From: Acidimicrobiales bacterium
GTDB lineage: Bacteria; Actinomycetota; Acidimicrobiia; Acidimicrobiales; VFJN01
DNA length: 47,926 nt
NCBI GenBank assembly: GCA_030681555.1
Contig: JAUXRW010000076.1
Location: 1-47,926, forward strand
Direction of reading: 5' to 3'
In this document: positions 15,119-20,419 of the stretch, piece after piece
Layout: every line of letters starts with the position of its first letter
Position numbering within the stretch: the first letter of the stretch is position 1
Program-made: the position numbers and the translations under genes
The notes under the pieces: generated by a model
Database searches by the model: none
What the model was told of the DNA's origin: nothing
Seen by the model: the letters and a program-made list of their open reading frames with translations, nothing else

Positions 15119-16876
15119 TCAGCCGTCGACGGGATCGGGCACGACGGTGTCGGCGCCCAGCGGGATGCCCATCGAGTGCGAGAGTCCGTCGCCGCCTACG
15201 CGGTACAGGCCGCGCTCGGCGACCACTGCGCCGTCCGCCGTGACGACGATGGGGAGGTCCTCCCGTTCGACGTGGTCGCCGAGCCGGATGGATACCCTTC
15301 CCCCGGCCGGAAGGTCCACGTCCTGGAGCCCCTGCACGGCGAGCAGCTGGCCGCTGGCCAGACCCGTGATGCTGAAGGTGACCGGGTCGCCGATCGACAC
15401 GTTGAGGAGCGTGATGAACTCGTCCCGGGCGGGCGACGGCCCACCGCCGGGGAAGTACCAGGTCGACGCGCCGAGCGGCGAGCCGAGGGTGGCGCCGATC
15501 CCCCGCCGAGGCGACCCCTCCCCAGCTGTCACAACCCGCTCCGCGACGACAGGCACGCCGTTCAGCGACCGCACGAAGAGGCTGTGCGCCAGACCCGCCG
15601 GGACGCGCTCCTGCGCGTGGAGGTCGAGGATCGCGTAGCGGCCGCTCGGGACCGTGAGCTCGAAGGGCTCCGGCGGCTCGATCGGCGGGGTGGTCTCCTG
15701 CGTCGCCTCCTCGTCCGTGGCTTCTCCGTCGGTGGCTTCCGGGTCCGCGGCCGGCTCCTCCTCCCCCGCGACCGGGTCCTCGCCCGCAGGGGTGTCGTCG
15801 GTGGTGGCGTCGCCCGTCCCGAGCGCCGCCGCGTCGAGGCGCACCTCCACCTCCACCTCGGCCACGCCGTCGCTCGGGTTGAACACGACGATCTGCTCGG
15901 TGAGGCCTGCGCCGGTGAGCCCGTCGGGGAACATCCACGTCTCTGCGGCCGCAGGGGCGCCCAGGCCGAGGGTGATCCCCTCCCGGGCATCGGTGCCGTC
16001 GAAGGTCTGGATCCGGTCGACCACGAGCCGCCCGCCGCGCACCACGATGTCGGCGGAGACGTGCGCACGGCGCTGCACGTCTTCGTCGATGTACGCGCCC
16101 ACGACGCTTCGACCGGGGACGACGAAGCCCTGGAACCGCAGCGTGTCTCGCACGCCTTCGTCGGTGGCGAAGGCGATGTCGACCGTGGCGTCGTCCGGGA
16201 ACGGGTTCATGAACACGAGCAGCTCCCGAGCGCCTCGTTCGGTGACGCCCCACGGGAAGGCCCATCGCGACGAGGCCGTGGTGCTGCAGGGAGCCGTGGC
16301 CCGCCCGAGGTCGCTGGTGATCTCGTGCTCGACGGCGATCTCGCCGCCCTCCACCTCGACGACGGCGCCGGCAAGGGGCGACTGGACCATCTCCTGGAGG
16401 CGCATCGTGAAGCGGCCGTGCGCAGGGACCTCCACCACCCGGCTCACGGGTGGGGTCCGCTCCACGGGTGCGACGGTGCTGGTCGTCCCGGCCACCGTCG
16501 TGGTGGTCGAGGGCTGCGCCGGATCGGCCGGCGCCTGGGGGTCGACGGCGGGTGGTGCGGCCACGTCACCGGTGAGCGCGGTGATCGTGGCGGTGCGAGC
16601 CCGGTCGGTGGGGTTGGCCAGCAGGAGGGCGTGATCGCCGACCCCGTCGGACAGCGCGCTGCCGCCGGCACAGAACCAGGTGGAGGACAGGGTCGGTTCG
16701 GCACGGGCTGCCGGCATCACCACGCCGGCGACGAGGCGGCGAGGGTCGGCCCCCGGGTCGTCGCTCTCGGCCGCCTGCAGGGCGAGGCCGCCGACGATGA
16801 GGCCGACCAGCACGACGAGGGCGCTGAGACGCGCCGAGCTGCCGCCGCGCTCGGGGGGCTGCGTGGCCGCGGTCAC
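15119..16876 (-). CDS. DUF5719 family secreted/anchored protein
   Basis: The 585-residue product has an N-terminal signal-anchor helix (about 15-34) and a long extracytoplasmic part with repeated beta-rich modules. Each module has a WYF/WMFP segment: STWFCAGG near residue 70, ETWMFPDGLTG near 320 and STWYFPGGGPS near 470. Two low-complexity linkers interrupt it, one Thr-rich (near 125) and one very acidic (about 355-405). This matches actinobacterial DUF5719, regularly found after a large glycosyltransferase as here. The GTG start overlaps the stop of that gene as GTGA, so translation is probably coupled. Its molecular role is unknown; a part in surface glycan assembly is inference. Confidence 0.82.
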   Translation of the reverse strand: MTAATQPPERGGSSARLSALVVLVGLIVGGLALQAAESDDPGADPRRLVAGVVMPAARAEPTLSSTWFCAGGSALSDGVGDHALLLANPTDRARTATITALTGDVAAPPAVDPQAPADPAQPSTTTTVAGTTSTVAPVERTPPVSRVVEVPAHGRFTMRLQEMVQSPLAGAVVEVEGGEIAVEHEITSDLGRATAPCSTTASSRWAFPWGVTERGARELLVFMNPFPDDATVDIAFATDEGVRDTLRFQGFVVPGRSVVGAYIDEDVQRRAHVSADIVVRGGRLVVDRIQTFDGTDAREGITLGLGAPAAAETWMFPDGLTGAGLTEQIVVFNPSDGVAEVEVEVRLDAAALGTGDATTDDTPAGEDPVAGEEEPAADPEATDGEATDEEATQETTPPIEPPEPFELTVPSGRYAILDLHAQERVPAGLAHSLFVRSLNGVPVVAERVVTAGEGSPRRGIGATLGSPLGASTWYFPGGGPSPARDEFITLLNVSIGDPVTFSITGLASGQLLAVQGLQDVDLPAGGRVSIRLGDHVEREDLPIVVTADGAVVAERGLYRVGGDGLSHSMGIPLGADTVVPDPVDG

Positions 16877-19800
16877 GGACGGGCTCCCTGCCCGGTGGTG
16901 CCGGCGATGGTCAGCCGGATGCGGAGGAGGGCTCGCAGGGCGATGAGCCAACCGAGGGCCTGGGCGGCGAGGAGGGCGTACCGGAGCGGCGGCGTGCGGA
17001 ACCGCAGCGTGGCGTCGCCGCCATCGGGCACGTCGAAGCCCATCGCCCACCCGTACGGCTTGGTGACCGGTGCCGACCGCCCGCCCACGGACAGCTGCCA
17101 GCGATCGGAGTGCGAGGCCGAGAACAGCACCACGGAGGCGTCGTCGACCGGACCGGACCAGCGCAGATGGCCGCGCTCCTCGGGGAGGACGCGCTCGACC
17201 GTGGCGAGGTCGAGGCCGGCCGTGCCCGAGACGCCGCCGTCGGAGGCAGGAGCGTCGGACGCCGGCACGCTGGCCCGGGCGCCGTAGAACGCCTCGTTCC
17301 GGAAGACCCTGAGGCCGGCCGGTACGTCGAGGGGTTCGAGGTCAAGCTGGGCGTCGAGCGTCACCATGAGGCCGTCGGGGATGGGCACGCCGTCGCTGGC
17401 GAAGGGCGCCGGAGCGACGCGCTCTGGCACGACGACGTAGGCCACCGCCATCGGCGCTAGCAGCCGACCCAGCCGGGCCGTCTGACCGGACCGCGCCAGG
17501 TCGAGGGCGTCGGCCATCAGCCCCGTCCGGCCGTCGTCGGAGCCGACGAGGAGGTCTTGCAGCCGGGGCGTCCCGCCGTCGGTGGTGGCGTAGGCCACCC
17601 CCTCGCTGAGCTCCCAGCCGGCCAGCGGAAGGGCTCGCGGGTCGCCCACCCAAAGCACTCGGAAGGCGTCGTCGTCGTTCTCGGCGTCGATGAAGCTCAG
17701 GGCCCGCGCATGGTCGCCGGCGGGCATCTGCCAGCGGCCGTCGAACGCCGCGCCGAGCACCGGCACCGTGCTCAGAGCCACCGCCGCCGCCGCGACGCCG
17801 GAGGCGATCTGGCGCCACCCGAATCGGTAGCCCGGGAGATCGACCTCGAACGCGGCCACGCCCATCGCCGCGGCAAGCGCCAGCCCCACGGCGGCCGGCG
17901 CAAGCAGCACCTCGGCGGGGGGCAGCGACACGGGCAGCGTGCCGCGCTGCGACGCCCAGGCCAGCGCCCAGAACGTCACCGCGAGGGTCCAACCCCGCAC
18001 GGCCCAGGCATGCCGCTCCCCGCGCCCGATGAGCAGCGGGAGCGCCGCCGCGACGAGGACGGCGTAGCCGAGCGGCGCGCCCCCGAGCGGCCCGACCTGG
18101 AAGCGCAGCAGGGCGTCGAGCCGGTCGGGCCCCCCGGTCGACTCCACGCCGGTGAGGGCGGACACGGGCGTGCCCGGGAGGAAGAAGTCGACGCTCCACG
18201 GGAGGTGGAGCAGGACGGCCACGGCGGCTGCGCAGCCCCCGACGACGAGCATCCGGCCCGAACCCTTGGTGCGGTAGACGAGGACGGACCCGAGCACGAG
18301 GGCCACCGTCATCACGAGCACCAGCACCACCGCGACCGGCAGGATCGTGGCCACGATGGCGGTGAGCACCCCGAGGGCGAGGATGAGCTGGCGGGGCGTG
18401 CGGATCCGGAGACCCGGCCCGGGATTGCCGTCGAGGAGCCCGAACGGGGCGAGCCGACTGGCCCGGGCGAGCAGCAGCACCATGGTCGGCGTCGCGGCGT
18501 AGAGGGCCAGCGCGCCCCAGCGGCCGGCGGCCAGCGCGTTGTAGGGCACGGGGTTGGACACGTAGACGAGCAGCGCGGCGATCTGCGCGTAGCGCGAGCC
18601 GGCTGGCCGGGCGAGCTGGTAGACGCCGAAGGCACCGACGGGCACCAGGCCGAGCGTCAGGACCGTGCGGAGCACGCCCATGGCGCCGCCCAACAGCAGG
18701 CCGAGCGCGCCGAAAGCGCCGAACGCCGTCGGGTTCGGGGATTCCGAGCCGAGGCCGGCGGTGTGCCAGCCGCTGGTCCACGAGCGGAACAGGTCGAACG
18801 GCGAGGAGGTGAAGGGCAGGAGCTCGCCGACCGAGGGAACACCCCGGGTGACGAGGTGGCGGCTGCCGGCGAGGAGCACCAGGCCGATGACGGCCCACAC
18901 GGTGGCGGCGAGCCGGAACGTGCCCGACTGCAGGACGCCGGCGGCGTCGCGGCCTGTGCGCGCCAGCCCGCTGAGTCGGTCGTCGCCACCGCCGATCTGG
19001 CCGCGCAGGAACTGGTTGAAGCGGGCGCTCCCCCTCGCCATGATGTGGCGCACCTCGGCGTCGGGCACCCGCCGGAACGAGCGCACCTGCTGCCGAGCCG
19101 CACGGAGCTCGTCGATCCGTCGCAGGTTCCACACCCACGCGCCGGCGACGTCGCGCGCATGGCGGGTCCGTCCCACGAGCAGCGCGTAGATCACCTCGGC
19201 GGCGTTCAGCACCGCGAGCTTCGGGACGGCGACGAGGAGGCTGAGCGGCGAGCAGGAGCTCAGCAGAACGCGCAGCCGGTGGCGGGACTGCAAGGTGCGC
19301 CGGTCGTCGACGTTGCGCCGGGCTCCGAGCGCTTCGAGGTGTCGCACCCGGGCATCAGGGGCGACGATGACCCGAGCCCCGGCGATGTGGGCTCGCCAGC
19401 AGAGGCTCACGTCGTCGAACAGGTAGTCGATGCCCTCGTCGAAGCCGCCGACCTCGGTGAACAGGTCGGCCCGCACCAGCGTGCACGCGCCGGGCACCGT
19501 GAAGACGTCCCGGACAGCGTCGTGCTGCTCCTGGTCGAGCTCGCCGCGCTCGACGAGAGGCACGGCGTAGCCGGCGTGGTCGATGCCCTCGCCCACCTGC
19601 AGGAGGCGGTCGGGCTCATCCCAGCGCACGAGCTTGGGGCCCACGATGGCGGCGTTGGAGCGGTAGGCCTCCTCGACGAGCAGGCGGACGACGTCTGGCG
19701 CGGGCGCCACGTCGTCGTGGCACATGAGGAAGAACGCCGCACCGTCGACGACGTCGAGGACGTCGTTGGCGGCGGCGCCGTAGCCGGGGTTGTCGTCCAG

Positions 19801-20031
19801 CCTTCGGACGAAGGCCCCGGGCGCCGCCTGTCCCACGCGGGGCTTGATCTCGTGGGTGCTGCCGGCGTCGACGACGAGCACGGCCAGGTTCGGGTAGTCC
19901 TGGGCCGCGAAGGCCGCCATCGTCTCCTCGAACCACGGGCCCGGATCCCGCGCGACGACGACGGCGACGACCGCAGGTGCGATCGGAGGCGCGCCGAGGG
20001 GCGCGTCAGGGCCAGGGGTCTGGGTCTCCAA
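16873..20031 (-). CDS. GT2 glycosyltransferase fused to a large membrane region
   Basis: This 1052-residue protein begins with a family 2 glycosyltransferase domain (about 20-260). Donor-site residues are DD at 106-107 in CHDDVAP, then GGFDE at 195-199 and FDD with W212. The rest (about 260-780) has more than ten membrane helices, followed by an extracytoplasmic domain (about 780-1010) and a final helix. The plan resembles actinobacterial cell-wall transferases that extend or cap a lipid-linked glycan. It is cotranscribed with DUF5719. The start is TTG 20031: no ATG or GTG lies nearby in frame, and a TACCCT box sits nine bases upstream. The glycan acceptor is unknown. Confidence 0.85.
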   Translation of the reverse strand: METQTPGPDAPLGAPPIAPAVVAVVVARDPGPWFEETMAAFAAQDYPNLAVLVVDAGSTHEIKPRVGQAAPGAFVRRLDDNPGYGAAANDVLDVVDGAAFFLMCHDDVAPAPDVVRLLVEEAYRSNAAIVGPKLVRWDEPDRLLQVGEGIDHAGYAVPLVERGELDQEQHDAVRDVFTVPGACTLVRADLFTEVGGFDEGIDYLFDDVSLCWRAHIAGARVIVAPDARVRHLEALGARRNVDDRRTLQSRHRLRVLLSSCSPLSLLVAVPKLAVLNAAEVIYALLVGRTRHARDVAGAWVWNLRRIDELRAARQQVRSFRRVPDAEVRHIMARGSARFNQFLRGQIGGGDDRLSGLARTGRDAAGVLQSGTFRLAATVWAVIGLVLLAGSRHLVTRGVPSVGELLPFTSSPFDLFRSWTSGWHTAGLGSESPNPTAFGAFGALGLLLGGAMGVLRTVLTLGLVPVGAFGVYQLARPAGSRYAQIAALLVYVSNPVPYNALAAGRWGALALYAATPTMVLLLARASRLAPFGLLDGNPGPGLRIRTPRQLILALGVLTAIVATILPVAVVLVLVMTVALVLGSVLVYRTKGSGRMLVVGGCAAAVAVLLHLPWSVDFFLPGTPVSALTGVESTGGPDRLDALLRFQVGPLGGAPLGYAVLVAAALPLLIGRGERHAWAVRGWTLAVTFWALAWASQRGTLPVSLPPAEVLLAPAAVGLALAAAMGVAAFEVDLPGYRFGWRQIASGVAAAAVALSTVPVLGAAFDGRWQMPAGDHARALSFIDAENDDDAFRVLWVGDPRALPLAGWELSEGVAYATTDGGTPRLQDLLVGSDDGRTGLMADALDLARSGQTARLGRLLAPMAVAYVVVPERVAPAPFASDGVPIPDGLMVTLDAQLDLEPLDVPAGLRVFRNEAFYGARASVPASDAPASDGGVSGTAGLDLATVERVLPEERGHLRWSGPVDDASVVLFSASHSDRWQLSVGGRSAPVTKPYGWAMGFDVPDGGDATLRFRTPPLRYALLAAQALGWLIALRALLRIRLTIAGTTGQGARP

Positions 20032-20120: not shown

Positions 20121-20152
20121 ACAAGCGCTTGCAATAGTTTGCAAGCGCTTGT
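20121..20152. promoter_or_regulatory. Paired palindromic operators, CAAGCGCTTG twice
   Basis: Two copies of the perfect palindrome CAAGCGCTTG lie at 20122-20131 and 20142-20151, with centres exactly 20 bp apart. Together they form a perfect 14-bp inverted repeat (ACAAGCGCTTGCAA and its complement) around TAGT. They cover the space between the -35 and -10 of the next promoter, so a repressor bound there should block it. The CAAGnnCTTG core recalls TetR-type KstR2 sites, and AAGCGCTT recalls LacI-type sites. No regulator gene is in the window. Confidence 0.85.
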
Positions 20153-20157
20153 ATCGT
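20129..20157 (+). promoter_or_regulatory. Sigma-70-like promoter TTGCAA-17-TATCGT
   Basis: TTGCAA (20129-20134) and TATCGT (20152-20157) are separated by exactly 17 bp. Transcription would begin near 20164, leaving a 25-base leader with the AAGGAG of the next gene. Both elements are embedded in or abut the paired operators. Confidence 0.75.
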
Positions 20158-20188
20158 GACCTGATCGTCCAAGACAAGGAGCCCGCAC

Positions 20189-20419
20189 ATGCAGGTTGAT
20201 GATGTCGCAAGCGTCATGAAGGATGCGGCCTACGTCTCGGTGGGTCTCGGGGTCATCGCCGTCCAGCGGCTCCAGGTCCGTCGCAACGAGCTCAACAAGC
20301 TGATCGCGGAGCAGGCCGACGAGGCCAAGGGTGCGCTCGACGCCGTCGGTGCCCTCGTGGGCGACCGCGTGAAGGTCGTCGAGGAGCGCCTCACCGCAGT
20401 CCTCGACCGCAGCCGCTGA
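20189..20419 (+). CDS. Small phasin-like protein under palindromic control
   Basis: The 76-residue protein is not assigned to a named family. A hydrophobic stretch (about 13-27, AAYVSVGLGVIAVQR) is followed by a long amphipathic charged helix (about 28-74). This plan resembles small phasin or granule/lipid-surface proteins, and similar short proteins seem common in Acidimicrobiia; both statements are inference. AAGGAG lies seven bases before the ATG, which makes it one of the few genes here with a full promoter and a strong ribosome-binding site. The two operators upstream imply tight induction by a ligand-sensing repressor. It stands apart from the GT4 gene that begins 70 bases later with its own -10 box. 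Confidence 0.75.
   Translation: MQVDDVASVMKDAAYVSVGLGVIAVQRLQVRRNELNKLIAEQADEAKGALDAVGALVGDRVKVVEERLTAVLDRSR

Follow-up and report, generated by a model that had tools for sequence, protein, structure and literature searches.

A doubled palindrome before a droplet-coat-like gene of an Acidimicrobiales bacterium is most likely one species' version of an actinobacteria-wide XRE switch

In Rhodococcus jostii, the XRE protein MLDSR controls the lipid-droplet protein MLDS, the N-terminal part of which carries the droplet targeting, and it does so by binding the sequence GNT(T/A)GCTNNTGCTANC (PMC5504291). Gel shifts on two adjacent motifs gave two bands, with an affinity of 62 nM for both motifs together versus 175 nM and 5.14 uM for the motifs apart; the protein represses at a high and activates at a low protein/DNA ratio, and it is sequestered by the lipid droplets (PMC5504291). 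In proteobacteria, PhaR works in a similar way: it represses coat-protein genes, and storage granules titrate it (PMC3079617). The mycobacterial protein HBHA has been reported to be involved in lipid inclusions (PMC6176652), and Rv0474 of M. tuberculosis has been described as copper-responsive (PMC10884836).

We analysed a promoter region within a stretch of 47,926 nucleotides (contig JAUXRW010000076.1, hereafter the window) of an Acidimicrobiales bacterium. A preliminary description of this DNA had reported a pair of CAAGCGCTTG palindromes with a spacing of 20 bp, which together form a perfect 14-bp inverted repeat, and a promoter built into them, all placed before a small gene starting at the ATG at 20189. 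The palindromes, the inverted repeat and the starts of this gene and of its divergent neighbour were confirmed at the positions given in Table 1. By chance 0.03 copies of CAAGCGCTTG are expected in the window, whereas two are observed, a number reached by none of 100 shuffles. The start-to-start distance of the two copies is 20 bp, and such a pair is present once in the genome. Across the 3.28-Mb genome, CAAGCGCTTG occurs in four places, i.e., the twin pair and two single copies, and since both single copies fall within open, codon-biased frames, the pair is unique in the genome.

Table 1. Coordinates of the features in and around the promoter of the 76-residue gene (positions refer to the window).
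Feature	Position	Strand	Remarks
First CAAGCGCTTG palindrome	20122..20131	.	Its right half forms the operator's left half-site
Second CAAGCGCTTG palindrome	20142..20151	.	Left part GCAAGC overlaps the right half-site of the operator; seen in this species
Perfect 14-bp inverted repeat, 4 bp between arms	20121..20152	.	Arms ACAAGCGCTTGCAA (20121-20134) and TTGCAAGCGCTTGT (20139-20152)
Operator core CGCTTGCAATAGTTTGCA	20126..20143	+	14/16 versus the order-wide operator TGCTTGCAAnnGTTAGCA; best match in the window
-35 element TTGCAA, within the operator	20129..20134	+	Same register in most orthologues
-10 element TATCGT, 17-bp spacer	20152..20157	+	TAnnnT likewise spaced in orthologue promoters
Ribosome-binding site AAGGAG	20176..20181	+	By inspection
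76-aa small droplet-coat-like (phasin/MLDS/HBHA-like) protein gene	20189..20419	+	Profile match to the MLDS/HBHA N-terminal domain
Divergent glycosyltransferase-like gene	16873..20031	-	Neighbour; control by the operator not implied

To find what is conserved at the site, the upstream regions of 30 orthologues of the 76-aa gene were read. The conserved unit is not the CAAGCGCTTG pair but an 18-bp operator with 16 specified bases, TGCTTGCAAnnGTTAGCA, that lies over the -35 box. The operator scores at least 12/17 in 23 of the 30 promoters, and TAnnnT follows TTGCAA by exactly 17 bp in 21 of them. The core in the window, CGCTTGCAATAGTTTGCA, departs from the consensus of the order at two of the 16 positions, and its score was reached by none of 2000 dinucleotide shuffles of the intergenic region. 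The exact CAAGCGCTTG pair was absent upstream of the orthologues examined, including those of three species of the same genus, and its inner part alone recurs. As the operator and not the palindrome is conserved before the orthologues, the palindromes are best described as flanking elaborations of the core. The idea that the promoter of the 76-aa gene incorporates a binding site for a regulator is supported, whereas the palindrome does not hold as its conserved element. In the orthologues, a conserved half-site GYTAGCA, a partial second copy of the operator, lies about 22 bp past the main operator and overlaps the -10/+1 region; it is absent from the species of the window.

The promoter elements themselves, TTGCAA and TATCGT at a distance of 17 bp, are present, with a register that is conserved in the orthologues. 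A strict sigma-70 consensus scan of the site called no promoter, so the earlier wording of a strong promoter was an overstatement; the argument for a promoter at this site is its conservation across orthologues and not the consensus scan. The orthologues of the 76-aa gene in the three species of the same genus (G001, G002, and G003; loci L006-L008, L078, and L079) have lost the operator, and therefore the control of this gene turns over; TATCGT is retained in two of the three despite the loss. In G001 and G003 the operator is located upstream of another gene of the phasin-like type, which diverges from a peroxiredoxin gene. The pattern in G001-G003 is a turnover of regulon members within the genus.

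As the candidate regulator we identified a 129-aa HTH-XRE protein encoded on the minus strand at G000:C64:22671-23057 of the same genome, where its gene is unlinked to the site before the 76-aa gene. Eight genomes were searched with the HTH_3 Pfam profile, and in an all-against-all comparison of 50 of the matches one short XRE group recurred in all eight. The protein shares 56% identity over 111 aa with the XRE protein of R. jostii, and the recognition helix, SNPYLSQIERGLRKPSAE, is identical. In a phylogenetic tree it groups with all operator-bearing orthologues, apart from a paralogue, with support values of 100/99. The paralogous family (type 2, SNPYLSQIERGLHEPS; L366 at G000:C27:9787-10131, and L367-L385) forms a clade of its own; in G019 its gene stands approximately 1.4 kb from PhaC, and in other genomes near phasin-like genes. 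Type 1, the group of the candidate, is present in 23/23 genomes with a strong operator compared to 31/67 of the others (Fisher p 8e-7, a value that ignores shared ancestry).

A phylum-wide search showed that outside the order the XRE orthologues usually stand directly before an HBHA-, MLDS- or phasin-like gene. There, the promoter of the XRE gene itself carries the operator at 13/16 or better in 28 of 37 loci, several of them exact, and each of these 28 scores was unmatched in 60 shuffles. Among named Nocardia and Rhodococcus genomes, TGCTTGCAAnnGYTAGCA was found upstream of the XRE gene in 68 of 80. In R. jostii NBRC 16295 (L334), GTGCTTGCAATTGCTAGCAC precedes the XRE gene, which is followed by an MLDS-like gene with a Lys/Ala-rich tail. 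This 20-mer fits the published MLDSR box at 11 of the 12 constrained positions, and we infer its identity with the 20-bp motif 1 of that publication. Within the order the picture differs: at most of the loci read, the neighbour of the XRE gene is a glycosyltransferase gene, and none of the 12 XRE promoters compared (from the own genome and 11 others) has the operator. A regular-expression search for XRE proteins near the operator sites found none, because in this order the regulator is unlinked. On sequence grounds, the regulator is most likely neither of the TetR (KstR2-like) nor of the LacI type, both of which had been suggested, but a member of the MLDSR family of HTH-XRE proteins; the operator tracks the XRE gene across the phylum.

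Compared to the MLDSR-MLDS operon of R. jostii RHA1 (ro02105 and its neighbour; PMC5504291), the locus thus has a regulator that is 56% identical with the same recognition helix, and an operator of equal geometry and almost identical sequence. The target in R. jostii is a small amphipathic droplet protein, while the likeness here comes from sequence comparison. A second target in the genome of the window has a Lys/Ala tail as in MLDS, whereas the 76-aa protein is short and tailless. Furthermore, regulator and target are unlinked here, the promoter of the regulator lacks the operator, and a single genome has the operator before two or more coat-like genes. The single autoregulated operon, which is not found here, is taken as a variation and not as a defining feature of the MLDSR-type regulator. 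In mycobacteria-like genomes (L238-L240 and L249), the orthologous XRE gene is followed by an HBHA-like gene and preceded by TGCTTGCAAAAGTTAGCA or a sequence close to it. We take these genes to be Rv0474/MSMEG_0918 and HBHA, and Rv0474 to be the MLDSR-type XRE orthologue upstream of hbhA. In that arrangement, in contrast to the present one, the genes are linked and the coat protein is a different one, and the regulator has been reported to respond to copper (PMC10884836).

The 76-aa gene had been called an orphan, which proved to be wrong, as relatives were found in 61 of 99 genomes of the same order; a comparison with the named genomes found none. No Pfam match over the cut-off was obtained for the protein, the phasin families (PF05597/PF09361) included, and for a longer relative a match to an apolipoprotein domain stayed below the cut-off. 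We therefore compared profiles by hhalign. The profile of the 76-aa family (29 sequences) matched one built from 19 droplet proteins that are encoded next to XRE genes, among them the MLDS-like protein of R. jostii, with a probability of 93.2% and an E-value of 3.1e-7, while 30 column-shuffled controls reached at most 0.6%. An earlier run with just three template sequences had given 76%. The match is strongest across the N-terminal segment. The profile comparison shows the 76-aa protein to be a remote homologue of MLDS/HBHA, which bears out its earlier label as phasin-like, and we propose that it may be a minimal droplet-coat (phasin/MLDS-like) protein. The PhaC_N domain was missing in the own genome, as it was in 21 of the 23 operator-bearing genomes, a result that refers to PhaC proteins bearing this domain. 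It favours neutral-lipid droplets over polyester granules as the probable coated structure.

To delineate the regulon, the pattern TGCTTGCnAnnGTnnGCA was searched in 297 genomes of the same order. It gave 88 matches versus 10 for the reversed pattern, and a part of the 88 are clearly due to chance, being degenerate and located within coding DNA. The operator was found in either orientation, with the palindromic TTGCAA kept as the -35 element. In addition to genes of the 76-aa type, the targets comprise PhaF-like phasins whose tails are rich in Lys and Ala, frequently with a rhomboid gene in divergent orientation, and a third family, small phasin-like proteins whose genes often diverge from that of a peroxiredoxin. 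At four loci (L072, L083, L126, and L129, in genomes of two families) the gene behind the operator encodes a CDP-alcohol phosphatidyltransferase (MFDGQFR...), and these putative sites link the control of coat proteins to phospholipid synthesis. The operator was also found before CsbD-like genes at two loci and upstream of the electron-transfer flavoprotein gene etfB at one (L121, G053). In the genome of the window, a second site at G000:C71:10772 matches at 15/16 and precedes a PhaF-like phasin with a Lys/Ala tail, for which the PF05597 match was below the cut-off. A 14/16 operator-like sequence, TGCTTGCAGGGGTTAGCG, is located at G000:C55:29900-29917 (L057) shortly before a glycerophosphodiester phosphodiesterase-like ORF, possibly a further member of the regulon.

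Conserved operator, regulon, regulator orthology and remote homology of the target are evident at the level of sequence. Together with the analogy with MLDSR, they point with good probability to the site being the operator of the MLDSR-orthologous XRE protein, a dimer of which would repress the 76-aa gene until droplets relieve the repression. For the species of the window we infer the binding itself, repression as its sign and release through droplet sequestration. An XRE dimer would bind CGCTTGCAATAGTTTGCA, which includes the -35 box, and so keep RNA polymerase off the promoter. Accumulating storage droplets would, as for MLDSR, retain the regulator at their surface, which would free the operator and allow the coat protein to be made. 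The doubled palindrome would supply extra half-sites flanking the core and probably lets a second dimer bind beside the first. Cooperative binding by two dimers, as previously suggested, is plausible by analogy with MLDSR on two adjacent motifs; the idea of two dimers stands, that of TetR or LacI dimers does not. As Rv0474 is reported to be copper-responsive, the signal may not be droplets.

The closest competing reading is that the operator is read by the type 2 XRE protein encoded at G000:C27:9787-10131, or that both paralogues compete for it. Type 2 is present in the own genome, its gene can stand near PhaC or phasin-like genes, and it shares SNPYLSQIERGL in the recognition region; with a recognition helix nearly the same as that of type 1, it could bind the site instead. 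However, all 23 strong-operator genomes have type 1, many of them without a type 2 match, the type 2 promoters are without the operator (best 8-10 of 16), and in the tree those XRE genes of other actinobacteria that carry the operator fall together with type 1. We therefore regard this reading as unlikely. That a repressor of the TetR or LacI family binds the CAAGCGCTTG pair is highly improbable. The core resembles TetR- and LacI-type palindromes, as the preliminary description stated, and one single copy of CAAGCGCTTG lies in a TetR-type-looking gene, but that copy is coding sequence; it is TGCTTGCAAnnGTTAGCA and not the pair that is conserved before the orthologues, and TGCTTGCAAnnGTTAGCA accompanies the XRE gene throughout the phylum.

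Hardly any probability remains for a PhaR of the proteobacterial type or a RamB/PrpR (ScfR) regulator acting at the site. PhaR does govern phasins elsewhere, and RamB-type sites (AAAGTTTGCAAA) resemble part of the operator. Both candidates were, however, rejected: the PhaR domain PF07879 was found in 0/99 genomes, and PF09856 of RamB/PrpR (ScfR) exceeded the cut-off in 0/99. The family of PhaR is unrelated to that of the XRE proteins. Finally, the conservation of TTGCAA-17-TAnnnT along with the operator would also be expected if the element were a conserved promoter alone, without a specific regulator. This is very unlikely, as the 16 specified bases reach well beyond the -35 hexamer, in either orientation to the gene, the same operator DNA precedes the XRE gene in other families, and the binding of MLDSR has been measured in Rhodococcus (PMC5504291).

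We conclude that the twin palindrome is most likely one species' version of an actinobacteria-wide switch in which an XRE repressor controls a droplet-coat-like protein. The preliminary description had considered the site the best candidate for an undescribed control unit, which is right in part. The regulator type and its operator are already known from one genus, Rhodococcus. The apparently new features are the wide spread of one operator over much of the phylum, a regulator encoded apart from its targets in this order, the loss of the operator at the gene of the regulator, and a coat regulon of several genes. The operator strings were not mentioned in the literature searched, the coverage of which was incomplete. 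A wider proposal, which we put forward tentatively and at somewhat less than even probability, is that an ancient droplet-titrated XRE protein controls coat proteins across the Actinomycetota via TGCTTGCAAnnGTTAGCA. In this order it would have left its operon to act in trans on several unrelated coat families and on genes of membrane lipids (CDP-alcohol phosphatidyltransferase) and fatty acids (etfB), as a droplet-sensing regulon not described before.

The results connect a promoter element from one little-known genome with a regulator whose binding site has been measured in Rhodococcus, and they yield one 18-bp operator for which actinobacterial genomes in general can be scanned, HBHA-type operons included. 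They bear on the signal of this XRE family, for which the reports differ between droplets in Rhodococcus and copper in M. tuberculosis, and they predict which genes, several of them without annotation, coat the storage droplets in this order.
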